Below, in pieces: positions 37,520-53,671 of a stretch of DNA of 64,000 bases. Within the stretch, counting starts at the first letter, position 1. Every line of letters begins with the position of its first letter. The stretch is taken from positions 2,232,001-2,296,000 of the forward strand of contig NZ_JBAMHQ010000001.1 of NCBI RefSeq assembly GCF_037081775.1. Reading direction: 5' to 3'. The stretch is from Haladaptatus sp. ZSTT2. GTDB taxonomy: Archaea; Halobacteriota; Halobacteria; Halobacteriales; Halococcaceae. The notes beneath the pieces are model-generated. The model ran no database searches. It saw only the letters and a list, made by a program, of their open reading frames with translations, and had not been told where the DNA came from. The position numbers were made by a program, and so were the translations under genes.

Positions 37520-38767
37520 TCAGTCGTCTGCGACGCCCTGGTCGCCGCCTTCGTTGTACCACACGTCGACGTGACGCTCTGGCTCGTAGGGCTTACCGAC
37601 GATGTCGAGGCGGCCGTCGTTGTTCAAGTCGACGACCTTCGCCTCGTGGGTCGGAATGCCCTCTGCGATGAGTTCCGCCTCGAACGTGCCGTCGCCGTTG
37701 TTGTGGAAGATGAACTGGCGCGGGTTCGCGTGCTCACCAAGACCCATCTCGGCCACGTAGATGTCGAGACGGCCGTCGCCATCGATGTCCGCGACCTGCA
37801 GGCTGTGGGGGCAGAACAGGTCTTCGTGGAGGAAGGTCGCCTCCCACGTCGGGGGGTCGAGGATGGCCACACGCCCGGCGTGCGTGCCGTAGGTAGGCGA
37901 ATCCCCCTCTGCGAGGATAATCTCTAGCTCGCCGTCGTCGTCGATGTCTGCGACGGCGGTGCGGGTGTAGTCCCAGCCCGGCGAAATCTCCTCGTGCTGC
38001 CAGTTTCCACCCGTTTCGTCCGGCTGCGAGAAGATGTGTGGCCCGGCGACCACTTCGGTTTCGCCGTCGCCGTCTATGTCCACCGCGACGAGGCCTTCGA
38101 TGGCCAGCCCTTCTGCGATGACGTGGAGATTTTCTTCCGGCCACGGCGACTGGGTGGGGTCGTCTGGCACGTCGTAGTAGAAGATGACCTTGCTCTCTTG
38201 TGAGAGGCCGATAACCTCGTTTTCGCCGTCGTCGTCCACATCTGCGACGGCGATGTCGTGGTACTTGTCGTACTTGTCGTGAATCAGGTGTTCTGTCCAC
38301 GGCGCTGTGGGGTCTTCTGGCTGTTCGAGCCAGAACAGTTTGGTACCGCGATAGCCCTGTCCGACGACCAAATCGACACGTCCGTCGCCGTTTATGTCGC
38401 CAAGCGCGTTGCCGAACACGTACAAATCCGGAGAGGTGGAGAGTTTGTGGCGCGTCCACCCCGGATTCTCGTACCAGAAGATGCTCGTCTCTTTCAATCC
38501 GAGCATGTCTTTTACGCCCGCGAGATTCGGGAGGTTGCTGTACTTGCCGCGAATCTTCAGATTCTTCATCGCGCCCATTCCGCCGACGATAACGTCCTGA
38601 TAGCCGTTGCCGGTCAGGTCGGTCGTGAGGCAGATGCCGAGGCGGGTACACGGCGGACTGGGGTCGATGGTTTCGTGGCGAAACTCCATTGGCGGTGAGA
38701 CGTGGCGGTACGGGTTTGTAAGCGACTGCTTAATCGACAGGTTCGCCGTAACCGGCCCGCTCGTCAC
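37520..38767 (-). CDS. FG-GAP/VCBS repeat protein, seven-bladed propeller
   Basis: The 415-residue protein contains seven acidic calcium-binding loops of the FG-GAP type: DLTGNGYQD, DINGDGRVD, DVDDDGENE, DIDGDGETE, DIDDDGELE, DIDGDGRLD and DLNNDGRLD. Seven such loops fit a seven-bladed beta-propeller. There is no signal peptide or anchor. The start is a GTG whose bases overlap the stop of the upstream flippase gene (GTGA), so the two are coupled. An intracellular ATG at 38689 is an alternative start. Its role in glycan export is unknown. Confidence 0.78.
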   Translation of the reverse strand: MTSGPVTANLSIKQSLTNPYRHVSPPMEFRHETIDPSPPCTRLGICLTTDLTGNGYQDVIVGGMGAMKNLKIRGKYSNLPNLAGVKDMLGLKETSIFWYENPGWTRHKLSTSPDLYVFGNALGDINGDGRVDLVVGQGYRGTKLFWLEQPEDPTAPWTEHLIHDKYDKYHDIAVADVDDDGENEVIGLSQESKVIFYYDVPDDPTQSPWPEENLHVIAEGLAIEGLVAVDIDGDGETEVVAGPHIFSQPDETGGNWQHEEISPGWDYTRTAVADIDDDGELEIILAEGDSPTYGTHAGRVAILDPPTWEATFLHEDLFCPHSLQVADIDGDGRLDIYVAEMGLGEHANPRQFIFHNNGDGTFEAELIAEGIPTHEAKVVDLNNDGRLDIVGKPYEPERHVDVWYNEGGDQGVADD

Positions 38768-40263
38768 CCCTTAACGACGTTCCCAATCGTCCGGAGGTTC
38801 TTCCCAAGCCCCCAGCCAAAGCGCGTCATGAGGACGAGTACAATCGCGCCGTAGACGGCAGCGCCGACGAGCACGAGGACGACGAATTCGAGCAACGGTG
38901 GAAGTGTGAGGACCGATTGGGCGGCCCAAACCACCCCTCCCATCGAGAGACTTGCGATGAGCGGATAGGCAATCTCGCGGAAGAAACGAGCGTAGGTGGT
39001 TTCGACGGTTTTCACGACCAGATAGATGTCGAGCGGGACGGAGGGGACGAGGTACGTTGCGACCACTGCGCCTGCGGTGCCCACGATGCCAAACTGGAGC
39101 GTGGCGGGGATGATGATGAGCGCGAGGAAGATGGTGCGCAGCGTCGAAACCTTCGTCGCGTAGTCGGGGTGCCCGCGCGCCTGCCAGACCGGGCCGAAGG
39201 TCATGTTCATCGAGACGAGGAAGGCGTACACGCCGATGAGTTGGATGGGGACGATGATGGGTTCCCACACCGGGCCGAGGAAGGCGATGACGAACGTCGG
39301 AGCCACCGCGACGATGCCCACCGCGAGCGGGAACGAGACGGCGGTTGACACCTGAATCATCTGGAAAAACGCCTCTCGCAAGGCGGGAACGTCGTCCTGC
39401 AATTTCGAATAGCTCGGGAACGCCACCGACGAAATCACGGCGGCGATTTCCGTGGCCGGAGCCATCGCAAACTGATAGGCGAGCTGGTAGAATCCGAGCG
39501 ACGTGGCGTTCAACAGCCAGCCAACGACCGCGTCGTCACCCTGGCTGTAGAGGAAGGTGATGATGCCGCCGCCGGTCACCCACTTGCCGTAGCCGAACAG
39601 TTCGCGGGCGGCGGGCAGGTCGAAGGCGAGTGAGGGGCGGAAGTCGTGAGCGACGTAGGAGACGACGAGCCGGGCCGCATCAGCGAGCACGTAGCCAAGG
39701 ACGAGCGCCCAGACCGAGCCGTAGGCGACGGCGATGGCGACGGCCACGACGAAGTTGGTGAGCGACCCCGACAGCTGGTAGACGAGCTGTTTGTGGAACT
39801 CGAGATTCTTCTGGAAGTAGATGACACCCGGATTGCGAATCCCCGTGAGGAGCGGCGAAATCGCCACTACCTGCAAAATCGGGAGTGCGCGCGGTTCGTG
39901 AAACAGGGCTGCGACGAACGGGGCGACCGCAAACGTCACCACCGCGAGGATGAGCCCTCGTGTGATCTCCATGCTCCAGGCTGTGTTGAGATAGTGGTCG
40001 ACGTCGTCCTCGCGCTGGTAGATGAGCGCCTGATTCAAGCCCAAATTCGAGAGGCGGCGAAGCGCTGTCGCCGTGAGCAGCGCAATTCCCATCAGCCCGA
40101 AGTCGGCCGGTTCGAGCAGGCGCGCGAGGATGATGAGCAACACGAGTTGCAGGCCCCTGTCGGTGAGATTCGACAGCGTCACCCAGATGCCGCCTTTGAT
40201 GGTTTTGTCCGCCAGCGAGTCGCCGGGCAACAGCCGGCGGATAAGCCCGCGTGCGCGACTCAT
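38764..40263 (-). CDS. Polysaccharide flippase (MOP/Wzx-like)
   Basis: The 499-residue protein has twelve to fourteen helices with the IKGGIWVTLSNLTDRGLQLV start of the MOP flippase family and long hydrophobic segments up to residue 480. It should move lipid-linked glycan units across the membrane. The start is the ATG at 40263. It is followed by the FG-GAP protein, overlapping it by four bases. It is divergent from a GT2 gene at 40506. A TAACAA element lies 87 bases upstream. Confidence 0.88.
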   Translation of the reverse strand: MSRARGLIRRLLPGDSLADKTIKGGIWVTLSNLTDRGLQLVLLIILARLLEPADFGLMGIALLTATALRRLSNLGLNQALIYQREDDVDHYLNTAWSMEITRGLILAVVTFAVAPFVAALFHEPRALPILQVVAISPLLTGIRNPGVIYFQKNLEFHKQLVYQLSGSLTNFVVAVAIAVAYGSVWALVLGYVLADAARLVVSYVAHDFRPSLAFDLPAARELFGYGKWVTGGGIITFLYSQGDDAVVGWLLNATSLGFYQLAYQFAMAPATEIAAVISSVAFPSYSKLQDDVPALREAFFQMIQVSTAVSFPLAVGIVAVAPTFVIAFLGPVWEPIIVPIQLIGVYAFLVSMNMTFGPVWQARGHPDYATKVSTLRTIFLALIIIPATLQFGIVGTAGAVVATYLVPSVPLDIYLVVKTVETTYARFFREIAYPLIASLSMGGVVWAAQSVLTLPPLLEFVVLVLVGAAVYGAIVLVLMTRFGWGLGKNLRTIGNVVKG

Positions 40264-40505: not shown

Positions 40506-41474
40506 ATGACCGGTCGGGAAACAGAGCCGTTGGTGAGCGTCGTTGTCCCGACGTTTAACCGACCAGCGGCGCTCAGAGCGGCCGCAGAGAGCGTCAACGC
40601 CCAAACCTACGATTCGATTCAACTTATCGTCGTAGACGACTCGACGACGCCCGCAGAAGCCGCTCTCACGGGTCTCGACTTGGATGCCATCGCGGAGATT
40701 CACTTCATCCGATCTGCGAACCCACAGGGCGCGGCCGCCGCGCGCAATCGCGGTATCGCCGCCGCAGACGGTGCGTACGTTGCCTTCCTCGATGACGACG
40801 ACCGATGGGACCCGGAGAAAATCGAGAAACAGGTCGAAGCCTTCGAGACGGCGGCTGCCGACGTTGGCGTGGTCTACACCGGCCAGCGCTACGTCGATGG
40901 GGCTGGGAACACGACGACGATTCGGACGCCGACCACGCAGGGGTGGGTCACCGAACAACTGCTCGCAGGCGCGCCACTCGCCCCGTTCTCGACGGTGATG
41001 GTGCGCGCGGCGGCCATCGAGGACGCCGGGACGATAGACGAACGCTTCCCCATCTGGGAAGACCGCGAGTGGTATCTCCGGCTTTCGACGGTGTGTCAGT
41101 TCCTCGCCGTTCCAGAACCGCTCGTCATCCGCACGATGGGCGACCACGGCCAGTTGTCGAGCGACTTCGCCCGGATTCAAGACGTGTCCTACCCCTTGTT
41201 TCTCGACACCCACGCGCCACTCGCGGCGTCCTACGGGATGGAACGCCAATTCGAGGCGTCGATGGCGCGAATGCTCGCCGTCGCCGCCCTCGACACTGGC
41301 CACTACGCGGCTGCGCGTCGGGCTTCGATGCGGGCAATTCGAGCCGAGCCAACGAACAAAACGGCGTGGGTGTATCTCGTGCTCTCGCTCGGCGGTCGCG
41401 TCACCTACCGACTCGCGCAGTCGGTCAAACGCCGAATTTCGACGGCTCAGGCTTCGAACAGCACGTCGCCGTAA
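40506..41474 (+). CDS. Glycosyltransferase family 2
   Basis: The 322-residue enzyme has the GT2 N-terminus LVSVVVPTFNRPAALRAAAE, the AAARNRGIAAADGAYVAFLD segment with the DDDDR aspartates that bind donor and metal, and a soluble C-terminus. AAAGGAG sits seven bases upstream of the ATG at 40506. Its end overlaps the convergent beta-helix gene (41447) by 28 bases, which is unusual for two real genes. Substrates are unknown. Confidence 0.88.
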   Translation: MTGRETEPLVSVVVPTFNRPAALRAAAESVNAQTYDSIQLIVVDDSTTPAEAALTGLDLDAIAEIHFIRSANPQGAAAARNRGIAAADGAYVAFLDDDDRWDPEKIEKQVEAFETAAADVGVVYTGQRYVDGAGNTTTIRTPTTQGWVTEQLLAGAPLAPFSTVMVRAAAIEDAGTIDERFPIWEDREWYLRLSTVCQFLAVPEPLVIRTMGDHGQLSSDFARIQDVSYPLFLDTHAPLAASYGMERQFEASMARMLAVAALDTGHYAAARRASMRAIRAEPTNKTAWVYLVLSLGGRVTYRLAQSVKRRISTAQASNSTSP

Positions 41475-43120
41475 ACCCGAACGGTCGGCTCGGAACTGGC
41501 GTCTGCTCTGATATCGGCAATTCTGATGACTGACTCGTGGGTGCCGCTCACGTACGGCGGTGCGGCGGTGACGATGCACGTATCCGATAGCTCGGCTGCG
41601 AGTTCGTGGAGCACGGGGATGGCTTCGATCACGAGTTCCTGTGAGCTGAGCTGTGGGAGGTCGTCAAGTTCGAGAAGACACTGCCCGTCCGCGAGACCGC
41701 TGTACTGTATCGTGATGGGATAGCGCCCGGCGTCGATTGTACCGCCGTCGATGAGACAACCGACCGTGTCGATGAAGCGAATCCCATTGCGCCCCGCGCC
41801 CGGCTGTTCGATGGTGCAGTTGCTGATGACCGAATCGGTGCCACCTTCGATGCGGATGGCCTCGCCGCCGCGTGCTGTGCCCGTGATGGTGACGTTATCG
41901 AGCGAAATCCAGTGTGGCTCCGGCGGGATTTGTTGGTAGGGTCGCCACGGCAATTCACCGGGCTTCGCCCGCCGTATCGCGGGCGTGTCGTCTAAGTCAC
42001 ACACGATGGTCGTGTCTTTGACGATCATGCTCCGGCCCTGTGGCGAGAGTTCGATGAGCGACTGGGATTTCGGTGAGTCGCGGGCGAGCACGGTGCAGTT
42101 TCGAATCTCCGCGCCCGGTTCGATGGCCGGAACGTTGAGTTGGACGCCGGTTTCGACCACGATTGCGCGGGTGTTAAAGCCCGTCTCGGTGGTTTCGAGT
42201 GGCGGGCCGGTGTACTTGCTGAGGTCGATTTCGATGGTGCAGTTTTCCGCGTAACTGCCTTTCCCGCCGAGGCGAATGCTCGACGCGTTGTTGTTGAGAA
42301 AGTACGAATCGACGATTTGCACCTTTCCCGGCGTGCGCGAGGTGTAACAGGCGTTGTTCCCGAACTCGCGGAAATCGCACTCCTCGATGCGAATGGTGCC
42401 CTTGTTGTCCCAGCCAACCCACACCGCGATTCGCCCGTTACCGTTCACGTAGGCGTCGATGCGCGAGCCCTGTTTCGAGACGGCTCTGCGGAGCGTGCCG
42501 ACGCCGTCTGGGTCACTGACCGAGAGGAGAAACGCGCTCACCTGCCCGCTAATGGTATCGACGCCTCTGCCGAGGTACTCCACGTCCTCTACGTGAAACC
42601 GACTTCGCGCTTGGATGCGGATGCCTGCGGTCGTGTCGGGCGCAGAGAGGTCGATGTCGATGTTCTCGATGACGATTTCGTCGTGGACGCCGCCGTTGGT
42701 GTCGAGCAGGATGCTGTCGAAGCCAGTCGGGGGAACGAACGTCACGTCACCCTCTCCGAGCAAGCCAACGGTGTCGGCCTCGAACATAAACCGTCCATCC
42801 AACTGGTAGCGTCCTTCCGGCACGCGAATGAGCGTGCCCGCCGTCGCCGCAGTCGTGAGCAGCGCGTTGATTGGCTCGGTTCCGGTCGGGTCGGCTCCGA
42901 GGTCTGCGACGAGGTCTACGTCGCGGGAAAACTGGATGCCGTGGCGAAGCAACTCGGGCGGGCCCGCTGGCGTCTGCGTCGGGGTTTCTGTCGGTGTTTC
43001 GGTGGGCGTCTCGGTCGTCGTTGGCGTCGGCTCCTGTCTGACCTGACAGCCCGCAAGCCCGCCCAGCGCAGCCGCTCCGAGGGCGGTAAGATAGCGTCGT
43101 CTGGACGTGGGCGGGCCCAT
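41447..43120 (-). CDS. Secreted lipoprotein with right-handed parallel beta-helix
   Basis: The 557-residue protein begins with a twin-arginine lipoprotein signal (TSRRRYLTALGAAALGGLAGC, lipobox cysteine C25; only part quoted), then a Pro-Thr-Glu linker (TPTETPTETPTQTP). The rest is a beta-helix solenoid starting at RHGIQFSRDVDLVADLG and built of strand repeats, like pectate lyases and depolymerases. It is paralogous to the protein at 43221-45779. It may trim or bind the glycan at the surface. The longer frame upstream is not used. A TAACAA element is 26 bases upstream. Confidence 0.82.
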   Translation of the reverse strand: MGPPTSRRRYLTALGAAALGGLAGCQVRQEPTPTTTETPTETPTETPTQTPAGPPELLRHGIQFSRDVDLVADLGADPTGTEPINALLTTAATAGTLIRVPEGRYQLDGRFMFEADTVGLLGEGDVTFVPPTGFDSILLDTNGGVHDEIVIENIDIDLSAPDTTAGIRIQARSRFHVEDVEYLGRGVDTISGQVSAFLLSVSDPDGVGTLRRAVSKQGSRIDAYVNGNGRIAVWVGWDNKGTIRIEECDFREFGNNACYTSRTPGKVQIVDSYFLNNNASSIRLGGKGSYAENCTIEIDLSKYTGPPLETTETGFNTRAIVVETGVQLNVPAIEPGAEIRNCTVLARDSPKSQSLIELSPQGRSMIVKDTTIVCDLDDTPAIRRAKPGELPWRPYQQIPPEPHWISLDNVTITGTARGGEAIRIEGGTDSVISNCTIEQPGAGRNGIRFIDTVGCLIDGGTIDAGRYPITIQYSGLADGQCLLELDDLPQLSSQELVIEAIPVLHELAAELSDTCIVTAAPPYVSGTHESVIRIADIRADASSEPTVRVYGDVLFEA

Positions 43121-43220: not shown

Positions 43221-45779
43221 CTATTTGTCCAGGTCTTCGAAGGTGATAGCCGCGGAGCCACAGACCTTGAATCGCGTCACGTTGCCTTTGAACCGGTAGG
43301 CGTCGACGCCCTCTGCAACCACGCCGACTGCCTTGCCGTCTGCGACGGTGTCTTCCATCCGGTCCCACGTCGTCGCGTCTTCGGGAGCCGTACTGAGCGC
43401 GTCACTGCGTTCGAGTTCGCCGTCAACGGCGATGCGGTAGCCCGTCACGTCGTCGCTCAGGCTGCCGTTGATGATGAGGAGGTTCGGCAGCTCGGGCACC
43501 GTGGCGATTGCCTCGTGAGGGTGGACTCGCTCGCCGTCTAAGAGGATGATGCCGGGGCCTTCTGCGGCGATGCTGGTGATTTCACCCGTGAACTCGTAGG
43601 CGTGGGTGGCGTTTCCGACCGCACCTTCGACCGTCGTGTCGAACACGTTTGCATCAAGGCCGAGGCTGCTCTCTTCGGCCTCTGCAACCTCGCCGCTCAC
43701 GTTGAAGTAGTAGACAGTCGACGCGTCGCTCGTCCCCGCGAAGGAGAGCGTGTGGGTCTGTTTCTCGTCGGTGGACGACTCGCTCGACCCGGCCGAGGAA
43801 CTGCTGTCGGTGCTCTCTGTCTCGGTGCTCGTCTCCGTGGTGTCAGTCTCGTCGCTTGCAGCCGACCCAGTGTCGTTGCTCGTCGTTTCTTCAGTGTCGG
43901 CTTCCGTCTCCGAGAACGAATCCGGGCTCACGGCTTCGCCGTTGACCGTAATCGTTGGCTCGCCACCAGAGAGGCTGAAGTCGGTGATTTCGCCGGTGAA
44001 GGTGTAGCTGTCGATGCCGCCTTCGACCTGCCCGCTCGCGGTCGAACCCGAGAGCGTGTCGTTGTCGTCGATGGTCGCGCCGTTCGCATCGCTTTTCTGG
44101 AGGTCGCCGCTCACGGAGAACTCGTATTCGCCGGGTGATTCGACGCCGTTGATGCTGAGGACGTTTTCGCTGTCCGCGTCAGCGGTTGTCTCCTCGGTTG
44201 CATCCATGTCCGTCGTGTCGGTTTCTGTCGTGTCGGACTCCGCCGAGGACTCGGTCGTCGTTGTTGTGGGTTCGTCGGTCGAGTCATCCTCTGCTGGCTC
44301 GCTCGATGCACCGATATCCGTGCTCGGGACGGGACAGGTTCCGGACTGCTCGATACCACTCGTCTCGCCCGTTGAGTTCTGGTAGTCGACGGCCGTGCCA
44401 CTCACGTTGACGGTGGAGTTCGTCACGTCCACGTCGGTCGAATTGATGATGCGCACGCCGTCGCGGTCGCTGCCGGTCTGCTGGATACAGCAGTCTTTGA
44501 CGTAGCTCGCGTCCGCGCTATCGATGAAGACGGCTTCGCGTCCCTCTGAGCTGCCGGTGATGCTACAGTTTTCGAGGCGGACGTAGTGGGGTTTTGGTGG
44601 GGTATCCTGGTATGGCCGCCAGCTAATCGACCCGGGTTCACCCCGGCGGACGGCGGGCGTGTTCGGCAGGTCACACTGGATGCGGGTGTTTTTGACCGTT
44701 ACACTGCGCCCCTGTGGGGAGACGTTGATGAGGCCGATGCCCTGTGGGGCGTTGCGGCCGATGATATCACAGTCGATTATTTCTGCTCCCGCTGGGATGG
44801 CCGGAACGTCCTGTTGGACGCCCTGATCGATGGAAATCCCGCGGATACCGAACTCGGTTTCCGTGTCGATTGGCGTCGGGCCAGTGTACTTGTCGAAGTC
44901 GATTTCGAGCACACAGTTTTTGACGTAGCTGCCCTCGCCGCTGATGCGGATTTGGGAGGCGTTGTTGTTGCAGAAGTAGGAGTCGACGATTTGGACGTTG
45001 CCGGGCGTCCGGGAGGTGTAACAAGCGTTGTTCCCGAACTCGCGGAAGTCACACTGCTCTAACCGAATCGTCCCTTTGTTCGACCAGCCAATCCACACAC
45101 CGATGCGGCCGTTGCCACCCTCGTAGCCGTCGAATCGAGAGCCTTTCTTGGCGACGGCGTTTCTGAGGACGCCTTCGCCGTCTTCGCTTTCGAGCGCGAG
45201 GAGGAACGCGCTCGTCTGTCCGCCGCTGGCGGTGAGGCCACGCCCGAGGTATTCGACGTCCTCTACGTGGAATTTGGTTTGGCATTTGAGCCGGATGCCT
45301 GCAGTCGTGCTCTCGTCGCGGATGTCGATGTCGATGTTCTCGATGAGCAGTTCGTCGTAGCCAGACCAGCTGTCGATGAGCAGGTCATCGAAGCCCGCTG
45401 GCGGGACGAACGTCACGTCGCCCTCACCGAGGAACCCGAGTCGGTTGTTTCGTGGGATGTATTTGCCGTTGAATTGGTAGGTTCCTTCGGGGAAGGTGAT
45501 GAGCGTGCCATCGCTCGCCGCCTCAGAGATGGCGGCGTTTACGGGTTCGTTCCCGGTTGGGTCTGCCCCGTAGTCCTCGACGATGTTGACGACCCGGTCG
45601 AAACTAATCCCGTGTCGAGTCGTCGCGGCCGCCGCGCCACCGCTTGCGACTGCCGTCGCGGTGGTGCCAGCCGCTGCCGCGTACGCACCCATTCTCAAGT
45701 AATCACGACGGTTGAGGAGCGTACCGTCCTCATTGTCCGCCGATTGTTGTCGCTGTTCGCGTGCCAGTTTGCGTGCCAT
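43221..45779 (-). CDS. Tat-secreted beta-helix protein with triplicated C-terminal module
   Basis: The 852-residue protein has a twin-arginine signal (LLNRRDYLRMGAYAAAAG, residues 21-38), then a beta-helix domain (about 55-480, opening HGISFDRVVNIVEDYGADPTG; short parts only) that closely matches the downstream lipoprotein. Acidic Ser/Thr-rich linkers (490-537 and 623-673) separate it from three similar units at about 538-622, 674-757 and 765-848, each with YxFxVSG, a VxGxVxxG turn and YxFTGxIT. They look like a stalk or carbohydrate-binding modules. The start is MARKLAREQR (45779). Confidence 0.83.
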   Translation of the reverse strand: MARKLAREQRQQSADNEDGTLLNRRDYLRMGAYAAAAGTTATAVASGGAAAATTRHGISFDRVVNIVEDYGADPTGNEPVNAAISEAASDGTLITFPEGTYQFNGKYIPRNNRLGFLGEGDVTFVPPAGFDDLLIDSWSGYDELLIENIDIDIRDESTTAGIRLKCQTKFHVEDVEYLGRGLTASGGQTSAFLLALESEDGEGVLRNAVAKKGSRFDGYEGGNGRIGVWIGWSNKGTIRLEQCDFREFGNNACYTSRTPGNVQIVDSYFCNNNASQIRISGEGSYVKNCVLEIDFDKYTGPTPIDTETEFGIRGISIDQGVQQDVPAIPAGAEIIDCDIIGRNAPQGIGLINVSPQGRSVTVKNTRIQCDLPNTPAVRRGEPGSISWRPYQDTPPKPHYVRLENCSITGSSEGREAVFIDSADASYVKDCCIQQTGSDRDGVRIINSTDVDVTNSTVNVSGTAVDYQNSTGETSGIEQSGTCPVPSTDIGASSEPAEDDSTDEPTTTTTESSAESDTTETDTTDMDATEETTADADSENVLSINGVESPGEYEFSVSGDLQKSDANGATIDDNDTLSGSTASGQVEGGIDSYTFTGEITDFSLSGGEPTITVNGEAVSPDSFSETEADTEETTSNDTGSAASDETDTTETSTETESTDSSSSAGSSESSTDEKQTHTLSFAGTSDASTVYYFNVSGEVAEAEESSLGLDANVFDTTVEGAVGNATHAYEFTGEITSIAAEGPGIILLDGERVHPHEAIATVPELPNLLIINGSLSDDVTGYRIAVDGELERSDALSTAPEDATTWDRMEDTVADGKAVGVVAEGVDAYRFKGNVTRFKVCGSAAITFEDLDK

Positions 45780-47653: not shown

Positions 47654-49228
47654 CTATTCGAGGTAGCCAAGCCCGCGCAGCCGGTCTTCGACATCGCTGT
47701 AATCTTCTGCGACCGCGCCAGCCGCCTGTGAGCGAGTGTACTCACGGGTTTCGACCGCGTGTGTCGAGTCGGCAGTGAAAATCTCTGCGAGCACGCGCCC
47801 GTCCGCCCCACTCGAAACCGGCTCGCCCGCGGCGTGGAGCACGGTTGGCGCGACATCGACGACCGTGGCGTCGCGTACGGCGACGCCTGCTTCGATGTCC
47901 GACCCCCACGCGAAGAAGATGCCTTCCGGCCGGTGGTAGGCCTCTGCCACCCGCGAATCTGCGATAATGTGCGGCGACAGGGTCGGCTCGATGTGGTAGC
48001 CCTCGTTGGCCGTCACGACGATATCCGGGCCGTCGGGGTCGCGGGGGTTCAGCCTCGCGCCGTCGTACACCGTGAGCACGCGCTCACCCGTCTCCGGGTC
48101 GGTCAGCCGTTCTAACACGCCCATCAGGTGGGTTTTCACCTGGGCCTTCTCGGCGGGCGCGACGATACCCTCGTCGAATCGTTCGGTGTCGTTCACGTAG
48201 ATGCTTCCGAGACCGTGGAGGAACGCCGTTGTCTGGCTGTGGTCAACGTCGTGAAGCTGGTGGGTGCCGGGAATCTGGCGGGCGGCGGCGTTCACGAGTT
48301 CGTCCGGAAGCGCGTGAACCAGTCGTTGCTCGGTGAGCCCAATCCGCGCAAGCGCCCCAAGGACGCGCGGCTTCGTGATGCCGAGCGTCGAGAGCACGCC
48401 GCGCGTCCCAGTCTGCGATTTCGGGACGAGGAAACCCTCCTCGACCAACAAGCGATTGACGCTCACGACGTGGTCTATCGGGCCAAACCCGTGGTCTGAG
48501 ACCACGAACAGCGTCGCATCGCGCTCGGTCGCATAGTCCATCACTTCACCGAGAATCTCATCGAGCAGTTGGTAGTGAGCGAGTAGCACCGCCTCGTCCC
48601 AGATGAGGTGCTGGAGGCGGTCTGGGGCGACGTAGACGAAAAAGAACAGTCGCCAGTCGTCGTCTGCCATGAGCAGGCGCATCAGTTGACGACGGTTTTC
48701 GACGAGCGTCGTGAGTTCTTCGAGAAATTCGGCTTTCCGCCCGTCGTACTCGTGCCACCTGAGTTCGATTTGGTAGTCTGGAATCTCGCGTTTGATCTGC
48801 GCTTCGAGCGACTCCGGGAAGGCAAACCGCGCAGACAGAGAGGGGGTCATCATCCCGGTCACGAGTTTCCCGTCGATGGGGGCGGGCGGGTAGGTCATCG
48901 GCAGGTTCGCCACCACCGCGGGCGTGAGCATCTCCCAGAGCGTCGGCTCGCGGATATCGTTTCGCGTGTAGGGGCGCTGGGTGTAGTCTTCTTCTACCGT
49001 AATGAACTCGTAGATGCCGTGGCGGTCGGGCCACGTCCCGGTCGCGATGGATGGCCACGCAACCGGCGTGTTCGCCGGTTTCGTGCTTTCGAGCGGCCCG
49101 CTCGCCCCCTCCGCGATGAGTCGGGAAAAATTCGGCAGGTCCTCCGTTTCCGTCCACTGCTCGATGAGGTTCCACGGAATCCCGTCGAGGCCGAGGATGA
49201 GCGCCCGGCGACTGGTGTCTGTGACCAT
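47654..49228 (-). CDS. Alkaline-phosphatase superfamily phosphodiesterase/pyrophosphatase
   Basis: The 524-residue enzyme has the AlkP fold with LILGLDGIPWNLI (metal aspartate), the nucleophile region TPVAWPSIATGTWPDRHGIY and VVSDHGFGPIDHV (metal aspartate and histidine). Such haloarchaeal proteins sit in glycan loci and may hydrolyse or transfer a sugar- or lipid-phosphate. No signal peptide is visible, so it probably acts in the cytoplasm. The start at MVTDTSRRA (49228) is chosen. A TAACAA element lies 33 bases upstream. Confidence 0.85.
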   Translation of the reverse strand: MVTDTSRRALILGLDGIPWNLIEQWTETEDLPNFSRLIAEGASGPLESTKPANTPVAWPSIATGTWPDRHGIYEFITVEEDYTQRPYTRNDIREPTLWEMLTPAVVANLPMTYPPAPIDGKLVTGMMTPSLSARFAFPESLEAQIKREIPDYQIELRWHEYDGRKAEFLEELTTLVENRRQLMRLLMADDDWRLFFFVYVAPDRLQHLIWDEAVLLAHYQLLDEILGEVMDYATERDATLFVVSDHGFGPIDHVVSVNRLLVEEGFLVPKSQTGTRGVLSTLGITKPRVLGALARIGLTEQRLVHALPDELVNAAARQIPGTHQLHDVDHSQTTAFLHGLGSIYVNDTERFDEGIVAPAEKAQVKTHLMGVLERLTDPETGERVLTVYDGARLNPRDPDGPDIVVTANEGYHIEPTLSPHIIADSRVAEAYHRPEGIFFAWGSDIEAGVAVRDATVVDVAPTVLHAAGEPVSSGADGRVLAEIFTADSTHAVETREYTRSQAAGAVAEDYSDVEDRLRGLGYLE

Positions 49229-49261
49229 CGTTACTATCGCCAACAAGGCGGGCGATGGGCA

Positions 49262-49286: not shown

Positions 49287-50426
49287 TTACTCGATGACGA
49301 CCGGAGGAGCGTCTCGGTCTATCTCGTGTGGTCGGTCGAGCAGGCGGGCGTACAGCGCGGTCAACTGCACCGCCACCTCCTGCCACGTGTACGCCTCTTC
49401 GACGAGCGTGCGATTCTGTTGGGCCATGTTTCGAACCGTCTTCGGGTCTGTGAGGAGCGCGGCCAGCGCGGTTGTGAGGTCGTCTGCATTTCCCGGCGTG
49501 ACGAGTCGCCCGTTTTCCGGCCGGATGAGTTCGGGAATGCTGCCAACCGGCGTCGAGAGAATCGCGTTGCCGCCCGCCATGGCTTCGAGAATCCCAATCG
49601 GCAAGCCCTCTGCGTGCGTTGGCAGGACGTAGATCGAGGCGTTGTCGAGCAGCGCGCGCTTCTCGGCTTCGCTTACGTACCCGACGTAGGACACGTCCTG
49701 ATACCGCGCGGCAAGCCCTTCTGCGAGATGTGAGAGCGGGCCTTTCCCGGCAATCGTGACGCGAAAAACCAGCCCGGCTTCGTGGAGCTGTTCGACCGCT
49801 TCCACGAACTCTCGAATCCCCTTTCGCTCGACGTGATTCGAGATGAACACGACGTGGGGCGGCGTCACGTCGAAGTGAGGGTCGTACTCGTCCGGGTCGA
49901 TGGCGTTCGGGAGGACAAACAGCTTCGTCTGGTCCGAGACGGGTTCGAGGATTTGTTTCCAGTATGCAGAGAGGACGAGTACCGCGGTCGCGGCGGCGAA
50001 CACGCGTCGTTGGAAAAAGCGTACCAGCCCCGACTCCGACTGGACGAACGTGTCGAACGCAGAGCCGTGGACGTGGAGAATCGTCGGCCGTCGCCACAGG
50101 TAGCGAGAAACGAACACGAACCACGACGAGAGGTAAAATGACCGCTCGTGTGACGTGTGGACGTGGACGATGTCGGGGCGCGACTGGAACGGGAAGCGCA
50201 GCGCACGCTTACCCGCGTGGAAGAGTTCTCTCACGAGCCACCGTCGCCCCTCACCGTCTGCGCTGGGCGCGACGTCGTAGGTCTCCATCCGCACCGACGG
50301 CGGGAGATGTTCGCGCTGTGCGGCGATGTAGCGCGCAATCCCGCCGGTTTCTCTGTTTGCCGGGCCAACGACGAGCACTGCAATATCAGGTTCTGGGTTC
50401 ATGGTACGGTGGGTCTGCTGGCTCAC
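49287..50426 (-). CDS. Glycosyltransferase family 4
   Basis: The 379-residue enzyme has two Rossmann domains (GT-B) with IAVLVVGPANRETGGIARY at the N-terminus, a donor-binding C-terminal half with HVERKGIREFVEAVEQL and the EX7E motif in EGLPIGILEAMAGGNA. It should add a sugar from a nucleotide donor with retention. The start is taken as the GTG at 50426, which overlaps the stop of the 650-residue membrane protein (GTGA); an ATG at 50402 is possible. No helices are seen. Confidence 0.87.
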   Translation of the reverse strand: MSQQTHRTMNPEPDIAVLVVGPANRETGGIARYIAAQREHLPPSVRMETYDVAPSADGEGRRWLVRELFHAGKRALRFPFQSRPDIVHVHTSHERSFYLSSWFVFVSRYLWRRPTILHVHGSAFDTFVQSESGLVRFFQRRVFAAATAVLVLSAYWKQILEPVSDQTKLFVLPNAIDPDEYDPHFDVTPPHVVFISNHVERKGIREFVEAVEQLHEAGLVFRVTIAGKGPLSHLAEGLAARYQDVSYVGYVSEAEKRALLDNASIYVLPTHAEGLPIGILEAMAGGNAILSTPVGSIPELIRPENGRLVTPGNADDLTTALAALLTDPKTVRNMAQQNRTLVEEAYTWQEVAVQLTALYARLLDRPHEIDRDAPPVVIE

Positions 50427-52375
50427 GAGTTCGACCGGAACGTGCCTTCAGGAACGGGCGGGCGCTTGCCAATATCGACGTAGAACTGGTAGAACTCGCC
50501 GTTCGACTGTACGAGGTTGACGTTGCGCTCGCGGGTTATCGCGGCGAAGCTTTCGCGTGAGTAGCGAAGCTCCTTGTAGGCGACCACCTCGCGCTCGATA
50601 TCTGTCTCGGTGACGACGAGCCAGTGGTCGCGCCTGACGACCTCCTCTGGATGGTTCTCGAAGTACGCGCGCAACCCGGTGAGCATCCCCTCCTCGGTCA
50701 CGGGGCCGCTGTGGACGACGAACGGCTCGTCGTAGTAGGCCGCCTCGTACCGGTCCATCCCGGTGCGAATCGCGGCGTACCAGATGGTTTTGTCCGCCGG
50801 TTGGGTGTTGAACGACGCCTGATAGCCCTCCATGTGCTGGGCCGAGACGTGCTGGCCGGGGAGGAAGATGTACGGCGAGGGGAACATGCTCACGACCGAG
50901 AGCACGACGACGAACGCCGCGCACATCAGCAAGATGGGGCGCAACAGCGTGCGCACCGACGACGTGTCGAGCGAGCGGTTGAACTGATGGACGCCAATCG
51001 CCCCGAGAATCGTGGCGATGACCATCCCGAAGCCGAGGTGACGGAAGAAGTACGTCGACACGTCGCCGATGAACTGGGCGGCAACGATGGGCACGAGCGC
51101 GAGCGAACCCCACAAGAAAAACGGGAGCATGCTGTCGATGCGGCTCGCGGTTCGCTTCCCGCGAATCCGTCCGAGTACCAGCATGGCTGCGAGCGCGAGG
51201 TAGCCCGCACTCACGAGGAACAGCTTCACGAACAGCTCGAAGATGCTCACACCGATGTCGCTCGCCGAATCAGACTGCGCACTCACGACCTCACCTGCGA
51301 CTTCGGTGCCAAAGAACAGCCCTTCGATGGCGGCGAGCGTCTGGTCTAGCGTGTTGAATGTCGATTGGTGCTGGTCGACCCAGAAGACGAAGATGATGAG
51401 CAAGATGAGTGCCTGTCCGTAGATGACGCGGTAGTAGGCGGTCGGACTCTCCGGGCGGGCCAGCCGATAGAGCAGTTGGACGCCCGCAACCCCGAAGACG
51501 AACAGGAGGACGTTGAGCGTGAGCTGTGGGTGGAGGATGATGAGGACGAATGCCGTCGGAGGCATGAGCAGCGTGACGGCCGTGATGCGACGCGGCAGGC
51601 GGTCGTCGTCCGCCTCGTGTACCATGTGTTTGACGAGGAGAAAGAGAAAGACGGGGAAAAACAGCGTTGCGAGCGTGAACGGGTGAAAGGAGAGGTGGGT
51701 TGCGAGGCTGTTGATGGGGAGGAGTAAGAACGCAGAGAACGCCGCGATGGTCGTCACACGGTGGTCGGGGAAGATGAGCCGTGCGGTGAGCGGGACGAAC
51801 ATGAAGTAGAGCAAGAGGAACACCATGACGGTGAGCATCATTGCGGTCGGCATCGCCACACCGGTCGCGCGCGAAATCGTGGCGGCGAACAGGTGACTGC
51901 CCGGATACGGAATGCTGTAGACGGTGAACACGCCCGCATTGAGCGAGCGCGCCCAGCCGAGGTGGATGAGCGCGTCGAGCAAGCCGTAGAAGTAGTACCC
52001 GCGAATCAACGGCAGGCCAACGATGGATGTCGTCGCAGCCCCGGCGAGCAGCACGCTCGCGGTGCGGACGGTGCGCCCCGACGCGTAGAAGGCGATAACA
52101 ATTGAGATCAGTAACGCGACGCTGACGCCGACCCAGTAGCCGACCGGCGTTGCCTGATATATCGAAAGTTCGTAGTTCGTCGCCGGGTCGCCGCGGGCGA
52201 CGAACACCGCCGCCATGAGGCCGAGAAAGCCAATCGTGAGCGCGACCTTTTCGCCGCGACGCCGGGCGTACGAGCTATCGACAACGACATCGTGGCGGTG
52301 TTTCGTAAACGCACCGTCTACCAGTCGGTCAACCGCTGACTCCATCCGCTCTAGGTTTGTTCGATCTGGGTGCAC
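50423..52375 (-). CDS. Large polytopic membrane protein, GT-C-like
   Basis: The 650-residue protein has about twelve helices in its first 500 residues, then a soluble C-terminal domain of about 130 residues. GYYFYGLLDALIHLGWARSL carries the acidic residue and histidine typical of the first loop of GT-C-fold lipid-linked glycosyltransferases. No family name is certain. It may act on a dolichol-linked glycan. The GTG start at 52375 is supported by AAGGAG at six bases. A TAACAA element is 37 bases upstream. Confidence 0.68.
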   Translation of the reverse strand: MHPDRTNLERMESAVDRLVDGAFTKHRHDVVVDSSYARRRGEKVALTIGFLGLMAAVFVARGDPATNYELSIYQATPVGYWVGVSVALLISIVIAFYASGRTVRTASVLLAGAATTSIVGLPLIRGYYFYGLLDALIHLGWARSLNAGVFTVYSIPYPGSHLFAATISRATGVAMPTAMMLTVMVFLLLYFMFVPLTARLIFPDHRVTTIAAFSAFLLLPINSLATHLSFHPFTLATLFFPVFLFLLVKHMVHEADDDRLPRRITAVTLLMPPTAFVLIILHPQLTLNVLLFVFGVAGVQLLYRLARPESPTAYYRVIYGQALILLIIFVFWVDQHQSTFNTLDQTLAAIEGLFFGTEVAGEVVSAQSDSASDIGVSIFELFVKLFLVSAGYLALAAMLVLGRIRGKRTASRIDSMLPFFLWGSLALVPIVAAQFIGDVSTYFFRHLGFGMVIATILGAIGVHQFNRSLDTSSVRTLLRPILLMCAAFVVVLSVVSMFPSPYIFLPGQHVSAQHMEGYQASFNTQPADKTIWYAAIRTGMDRYEAAYYDEPFVVHSGPVTEEGMLTGLRAYFENHPEEVVRRDHWLVVTETDIEREVVAYKELRYSRESFAAITRERNVNLVQSNGEFYQFYVDIGKRPPVPEGTFRSNS

Positions 52376-52462: not shown

Positions 52463-53671
52463 TCACCGAACATCGGTCGCCTCCGGTGGCTGTACGCTCG
52501 CTTTTCGGTGCGCCACTGCGTATTCTGAGAGCGCATAGGCCATCCACGCTTCCGCCCACCGCATCAAAACGATACGCTTCGTATAGAAGTGCTCTCTGCG
52601 GTAGAAAAACTGGCCGTCGCCCGCATAGAGCGTTCGCACCGTCCATTCGAGGATTCGTGCGGCAAAATCGAGGTCGCCCGCTCGCGTGAAGACGATGATG
52701 CCCTGTGCGGCAGCGTGGATGTCGCGCGGGAAGACTCGTTTCTCGTCCCAGCGGGGCGCGCCGTCTCGCTCGAACAACTGGTCGCGATAGAACTGCAAAC
52801 TCCGGTCGAGCGCCGGGGCAAACCGCGTTGCATCGACCTGTTCTGCGTAGCGCACGAGACACTCGATGATGAAGCCGTTATGGTGACCGTCCATCGAGAG
52901 GTGCGACGCCTCCGGCGGGTCGCGGTAGTACCACCCGCCGAGGGGCGTTTGCCGGGCGACGACGAAGGAGAGCAACGCTGTGGCCTTTTCAGCATACGCC
53001 ACGGTTCCCGTGTGTTCGTACAGGTCACAGAACAGGCTCGCTGCGAGCGCGATGGCGTTGAGCGTGTGGTAGGTCGCGTCTTCCGCGGCGACGTAGGTGA
53101 TGTAGGCTCCGTCTGCGGTTTCTGTGTAGTTGAGGTCGCGCGTGAGGAACTCGGCTGCACTCTCTGCGAGCGTCGCGTACTCGGGGTCGAACGTCGATAG
53201 TGCGAGCAGCGCACGCACGCCGTAGGTGGTCGAGACCACGTCTCCCTCGGTCGGCGCGCGCCGACTGCCGAGATCTTGGAGGGCGTGCGCGTGGCCGCCA
53301 CAGAAGCCGTTGTACCCCGCTCGCCGGGTTTCTACGAGCCAGTCCGCCAGTCGCGTGGCTTCTGCGTCGTAGTCCACTTCGTCGAGCCCGAGCAGGCTCG
53401 CGTTGTGGTTGGCGAGCGCGAACAGCGCACTCCCCTTGAAGCTCTGGCGTTGCTCGACCAGAAAGAGCCGCCGGAGGTTAATCGGGGCGCGTTTGATACC
53501 CTCTTGGACGACGAGGTTGAGCCACTGGTTATCGATGGGAACGGCCTGCAGCAGCCGACTGCTCATGCCGTCTGCGTAGTCCCAGCCCGTGTACGCCCGC
53601 GTCCGGGCGTAGCGAAGCGTCTCTGTGAGTAGCGATTCGGCGTCGATGGAGCGCTCCAGAGCGGCAGTCAT
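52463..53671 (-). CDS. Alpha/alpha-toroid (six-hairpin) protein of a glycan locus
   Basis: The 402-residue soluble protein is made of helical hairpins with aromatic-rich segments (RAYTGWDYADGMSSRLL, NHNASLLGLDEVDYDAE, GGHAHALQDLGS, SMDGHHNGFIIECLVRY). This resembles six-hairpin glycosidases, epimerases and uronate-processing enzymes. It may process a sugar of the glycan. In databases such proteins are sometimes labelled ABC permease, which does not fit the lack of helices. The ATG is at 53671, with a TAACAA element 27 bases upstream. Confidence 0.62.
   Translation of the reverse strand: MTAALERSIDAESLLTETLRYARTRAYTGWDYADGMSSRLLQAVPIDNQWLNLVVQEGIKRAPINLRRLFLVEQRQSFKGSALFALANHNASLLGLDEVDYDAEATRLADWLVETRRAGYNGFCGGHAHALQDLGSRRAPTEGDVVSTTYGVRALLALSTFDPEYATLAESAAEFLTRDLNYTETADGAYITYVAAEDATYHTLNAIALAASLFCDLYEHTGTVAYAEKATALLSFVVARQTPLGGWYYRDPPEASHLSMDGHHNGFIIECLVRYAEQVDATRFAPALDRSLQFYRDQLFERDGAPRWDEKRVFPRDIHAAAQGIIVFTRAGDLDFAARILEWTVRTLYAGDGQFFYRREHFYTKRIVLMRWAEAWMAYALSEYAVAHRKASVQPPEATDVR

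Follow-up and report, generated by a model that had tools for sequence, protein, structure and literature searches.

The window analyzed here, a stretch of 64,000 nucleotides from Haladaptatus sp. ZSTT2, contains on the minus strand, at positions 43221-45779, a gene encoding a protein of 852 aa with its ATG at 45779. The product begins with a Tat signal peptide region (45624-45779) harboring the motif RRDYLRM (NRRDYLRM...AAAATT), and a check of the sequence found no lipobox cysteine after this motif. The signal leads into a right-handed parallel beta-helix of the pectate-lyase-like type (residues 51-480; 44340-45629), which scored above the PF12708 cut-off in a Pfam scan (33.8 bits versus 27; E 3.8e-8), in agreement with a preliminary description of the product as a Tat-secreted beta-helix protein. 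From there to the protein end the order is a first linker (residues about 485-540; 44169-44327), unit 1 (residues 538-622; 43914-44168), a second linker (residues about 623-674; 43761-43913), unit 2 (residues 674-757; 43509-43760), and unit 3 (residues 765-848; 43236-43487), which is the terminal copy. All of these features lie on the minus strand. The two linkers, previously noted as Ser/Thr/Asp-rich, consist of Ser, Thr, Asp, and Glu to 75% and 83%, respectively.

The preliminary description had proposed that the three C-terminal units are related to each other. A profile was built from 493 units, with the window gene and its nearest orthologs excluded. It matched the protein exactly three times, at residues 541-620 (94.9 bits), 678-754 (54.2 bits), and 768-849 (53.6 bits), versus a best domain of 9.9 bits in 1000 shuffles of residues 521-852. 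The repeat observation is therefore right and far beyond chance, and the unit boundaries given above, which are those originally proposed, are correct to within a few residues of the profile matches. Unit 3 has a 7-residue insert and lacks the NGExVxP edge strand. The same genome harbors a second unit gene, which had escaped the preliminary description and encodes a 633-residue beta-helix with three units; no further unit gene was found there.

Adjacent to the unit-bearing gene, and also on the minus strand, lies the gene for a paralogous beta-helix (41447-43120) whose lipoprotein nature had likewise gone unmentioned. Its Tat/lipobox sequence is RRRYLTALGAAALGGLAGCQ; the lipobox cysteine (lipobox LAGC) is present after the Tat motif (RRRYLTALGAAALGGLAGC), and lipidation is predicted. 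This paralog has a Thr/Pro/Glu-rich linker and, as had been claimed, none of the units, since the profile produced no match to it even with all filters off. Around both genes are found a polysaccharide flippase (38764-40263, minus strand; PF13440, E 5.9e-80), a family-2-type glycosyltransferase (40506-41474, plus strand; named from its sequence), an alkaline-phosphatase-superfamily phosphodiesterase (47654-49246, minus strand; PF01663, E 1.5e-40), a family-4 glycosyltransferase (49287-50426, minus strand; PF13692, E 5e-28), and a multi-pass membrane protein, referred to here as MB650 (50423-52375, minus strand). The flippase gene is adjoined by a gene for an FG-GAP beta-propeller protein (37520-38767, minus strand), and MB650 is adjoined in related genomes (L058, L102) by the homolog of a 402-residue protein with no Pfam match (52463-53671, minus strand).

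The claim that the module was undescribed is supported. No Pfam-A or NCBIfam family exceeded its curated cut-off in a scan of 26 units, the best Pfam match being Isoamylase_C (E 0.0018, in a single unit; 14.5 bits for the window protein versus a cut-off of 27). Comparison of the unit profile with all PDB chains gave nothing under E 0.22, and none of the papers searched was found to describe the module. When a 19-unit profile was run on haloarchaea, the module was found to be far more widespread than first thought, being present in 282 of 391 Halobacteria genomes (about 72%) and in 75 of 86 genera. About 240 sampled genomes of the phylum outside the order gave zero unit matches (sample of 295, all matches within the order). 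A viral or phage origin was rejected, as no relative was found in IMG/VR or phage records, and so was spread to bacteria, as the listed matches in Pantoea plasmids corresponded to an efflux pump at the level of chance (E about 0.3). Two plasmids of 100,265 and 100,260 bases (CP040681.1 and CP046868.1) share one unit-bearing gene; their hosts, placed in Halostella and Salinibaculum, both came from salted brown alga. Either the gene was transferred recently or a single strain goes by two names.

Structure prediction with AF2 confidently rendered unit 1 as a small all-beta domain (pLDDT 93.4, pTM 0.83) with strands at unit positions 2-7, 13-19, 23-26, 38-40, 43-48, 52-57, 61-67, 72-75, and 78-80. 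Units 2 and 3, predicted jointly, repeated the strand order of unit 1 (pLDDT 84.7), except that the final edge strand is missing in unit 3, as it is in many terminal units. The alignment was built from 7 related loci, which limits the depth available to AF2, and the comparison between units concerns strand order alone. Given one predicted strand order across the three units, unrelated folds, which the preliminary description had named as the outcome that would speak against it, were not what was found. Foldseek searches against the PDB and viral structure libraries gave no E under 0.001; the best match was a CBM2 domain (E 0.04, probability 0.47). VIA gave a best Z of 4.6 both with unit 1 and with units 2 and 3 together; the comparison with 2cwr gave Z 4.3 with an rmsd of 2.9 over 64 residues, a score that unrelated folds tie. 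CBM2 and chitin-binding domains, cohesins, pilins, and TRAP thus stand as weak fold neighbors at similarly low Z. The missing fold match is no proof of a new fold, and with nothing above Z 4.6 the function is not assignable by structure.

Within the unit, conservation falls mainly on core-like positions (Y, YxF, G), and the conserved aromatics, namely the Y at the start of YEF and the Y/F-x-F motif, resemble core positions as well. With tryptophan, moreover, at only 0.58 per unit, there is no evident aromatic platform of the classic sugar-binding type. Carbohydrate binding, as originally suggested, is plausible, CBM2 and chitin-binding domains being among the mixed weak fold neighbors; given no obvious platform, the ligand could also be a protein, for instance the S-layer. 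The units are also acidic (21% D+E, 5% K+R).

Of the complete ORFs, 127 have their units at the C-terminus, 13 at the N-terminus, and 5 in the middle, and the copies number one to six, mostly three or four; the usual arrangement is two to five tandem copies ending the protein. Within the whole set of 159 unit ORFs the array ends the protein in 138 (at most 15 residues after the last unit), and a C-terminal transmembrane segment was found in none. Many kinds of Tat protein serve as hosts, among them beta-helices of two classes, a seven-unit subtilase, a DsbA-like thioredoxin, and an Fn3 protein; in two further cases the units precede an H-type lectin or a PQQ sugar dehydrogenase. Such host diversity indicates a transplantable extracellular module. 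The domain family is new and unnamed, while its kind, an accessory module for extracellular placement, is a familiar one.

Homologs of the host beta-helix were found in 173 of 292 Halobacteria genomes, and residues N271 and R278 are invariant across the 105 aligned relatives with a letter at those positions, in lipobox and unit-bearing proteins alike. Many polysaccharide clusters of haloarchaea contain a pair of beta-helix genes, one with a lipobox and one with units. The evaluable beta-helix relatives number 109. A Tat lipobox was recognized in 23 of them, all devoid of units; among those with a Tat signal and no lipobox, 59 have units and 18 do not; and the remaining 9 show no recognized Tat motif, 7 of them having units. 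The mutual exclusion of units and lipobox is highly significant (Fisher test; p-value 8e-12). In three of the 18 Tat beta-helices with neither device (L214, L216, and L225), hydrophobic transmembrane-like tails at the C-terminus replace them, and these tails are a third anchoring mode on the same beta-helix domain.

A tree of 107 beta-helix domains, from which anchors and units had been removed (quick IQ-TREE run, LG+G4), places 10 changes of the lipobox state, at least 8 of them on starred branches. In 8 independent pairs differing in the lipobox, the units differed in the opposite sense in 6.1 on average and were equal in 1.9, and they never changed in the same sense (median sign-test p-value 0.03). 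In several clusters the lipobox and unit-bearing beta-helices of one cluster grouped together, with support of 89 for the genus of the window, 92 for its f5 counterparts, 99 (starred) for L107/L137, and 98 (starred) for L054, as if each cluster kept two editions of one beta-helix.

To compare gene neighborhoods, 34 segments of 20 kb, each surrounding a unit gene, were set against 39 controls, of which nearly all came from those very genomes. MB650 was present in 21/34 unit loci versus 0/39 controls and the phosphodiesterase in 16/34 versus 1/39, counts that are raw as to phylogeny and include some loci fetched for holding units. Those two genes provided the strong signals. The flippase was found in 6/34 unit loci versus 0/39 controls and the FG-GAP protein in 4/34 unit loci, and the generic enrichment of glycosyltransferases plus flippases was modest (12/34 versus 4/39; p-value 0.012). 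The association with MB650 and its companions was seen in several families and across different classes of beta-helix host. The window genome has exactly two unit loci, each with an MB650 gene beside it, and no MB650 gene elsewhere; its two closest phosphodiesterase copies are also located at these two loci.

The same link was detected at the level of whole genomes: across the 391, unit and MB650 occurred together in 250, the unit alone in 32, MB650 alone in 9, and neither in 100, an odds ratio of 87 that takes no account of phylogeny. As a control of similar prevalence, archaellin gave an odds ratio of 0.21; no archaellin (PF01917) was detected in the Haladaptatus sp. ZSTT2 genome or in the sampled members of its family, and 115 of 145 sampled Halobacteria have one. 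Pfam gave no match to the window MB650 itself, and 8 of 15 relatives match DUF6541 (PF20176) weakly (best E 9.6e-8); judging from its make-up, the protein could be a GT-C-like glycosyltransferase. Several MB650 copies elsewhere carry an in-frame stop within the match. The PF01663 phosphodiesterase is possibly a transferase or hydrolase that modifies glycans of the coat.

A plasmid of Haloferax mediterranei carries a cluster that combines wecB and MB650 (E 1e-107) with genes for a nucleotide-sugar dehydrogenase, an aminotransferase, glycosyltransferases, and a flippase, together with an 888-residue beta-helix with four units (WP_004060911.1) and, 2.7 kb further on, a lipobox beta-helix. Work on this species already uses a strain from which an exopolysaccharide cluster was removed (PMC9769981, PMC6759562); that cluster is possibly other than the unit-bearing one.

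The Tat signals, the polysaccharide gene clusters, and the full exclusion from lipid-anchored relatives all support, indirectly, the original view of the units as a surface module. A stalk, the alternative offered at that time, fits the Ser/Thr-rich linkers and is at odds with units that lie mostly at the protein end. The units take the place of the membrane anchor of other relatives, are mostly found at the far end of the chain, and belong to proteins encoded in polysaccharide clusters; the simplest account is a haloarchaeal extracellular module that most probably keeps its protein within the coat, be it polysaccharide or S-layer, with no membrane anchor, a reading to which we assign a probability of about 0.6. 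As the units track MB650 more tightly than would be expected from any general feature of the surface, the glycan of the cluster itself would be the likeliest ligand. According to this account, an all-beta module of about 80 residues would retain its host in the coat independently of the membrane; the hosts are Tat-exported, joined to it through Ser/Thr-rich linkers, and mostly beta-helices whose genes accompany those for surface polysaccharide. The window cluster would then encode two versions of one beta-helix, one lipid-anchored at the membrane and the other, unit-bearing, further out, and both would probably act, presumably as enzymes, on the glycan made by the flippase, glycosyltransferases, MB650, and phosphodiesterase of their own cluster. 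Counting against coat retention are the 18 Tat beta-helices with neither lipobox nor units and the 32 genomes that have units and no detected MB650.

If the units bound protein instead, either the S-layer glycoprotein or each other, they would be S-layer-docking or self-assembly domains, and both the cohesins and pilins among their weak fold neighbors and the resemblance of terminal tandem copies to docking arrays would be accounted for. The S-layer is, however, a general feature of haloarchaea, whereas the units are absent from 109 of 391 genomes and follow MB650 rather than the S-layer, so we consider this alternative unlikely.

Lower still we would rank a role as passive, ligand-free spacers or solubility domains projecting the beta-helix or a free enzyme. 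The acidic composition, the Ser/Thr-rich linkers, and the variable copy number agree with such a role, but a spacer belongs between a domain and its anchor, and 138 of 159 arrays end their protein and none is followed by one; neither would exclusion from lipoproteins be expected of a spacer across at least 8 switches. Equally improbable is a function in sorting or as a modification tag, with MB650 and the phosphodiesterase modifying the units or attaching them to a glycan or lipid. Unit and MB650 genes do travel together, as sorting signals do with sortases, but a folded, multi-copy domain of 80 residues is unlike the known short sorting tags, units occur in genomes with no detected MB650, and the relatives of MB650 would seem to be membrane glycosyltransferase-type proteins.

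The module can be compared with several known systems. Like CBM2 and archaeal chitin-binding domains (6qfs, 2cwr, 5dhd), which are among its weak fold neighbors, it would be a small beta-sandwich accessory domain joined by linkers to secreted carbohydrate-active proteins; unlike them, it has no sequence match, significant fold match, or evident aromatic platform, and it is restricted to Halobacteria. The Tat lipoproteins with a lipobox, reviewed for haloarchaea (PMC12186497) and represented here by the adjacent paralog, share with it the Tat route and the beta-helix but never the units: in all DNA examined, units occurred in 122 Tat ORFs and 0 lipobox ORFs, and the ORFs lacking units comprised 121 with Tat and 48 with lipobox. 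The archaeosortase/PGF-CTERM system (PMC12186497) is also a C-terminal device on haloarchaeal surface proteins, although the units are folded domains that lack its C-terminal transmembrane tail. As to the pectate-lyase-like, GH28-related beta-helix proteins, the host domain belongs among them by its Pfam score, and PF12708 spans this domain and not the C-terminal units. What is new here is the breadth of the module, its exclusion with lipid anchoring, exceptionless in this sample, and its tie to one membrane protein.

A family without a name, found in about 72% of the haloarchaeal genomes sampled, would offer an interpretation for many hypothetical proteins. If coat retention is true, the module would constitute a third route for keeping secreted haloarchaeal proteins at the surface, next to the lipobox and archaeosortase. 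A further and more tentative possibility is that module, MB650, and phosphodiesterase form a dedicated haloarchaeal surface-retention system, in which the glycan of the MB650 cluster would be the receptor holding any module-bearing Tat protein. Haloferax mediterranei, which is genetically tractable, has the full gene set, and the two beta-helices suggest a testable division of labor, in which one would work at the membrane and its twin in the matrix, both being encoded in a single polysaccharide cluster.
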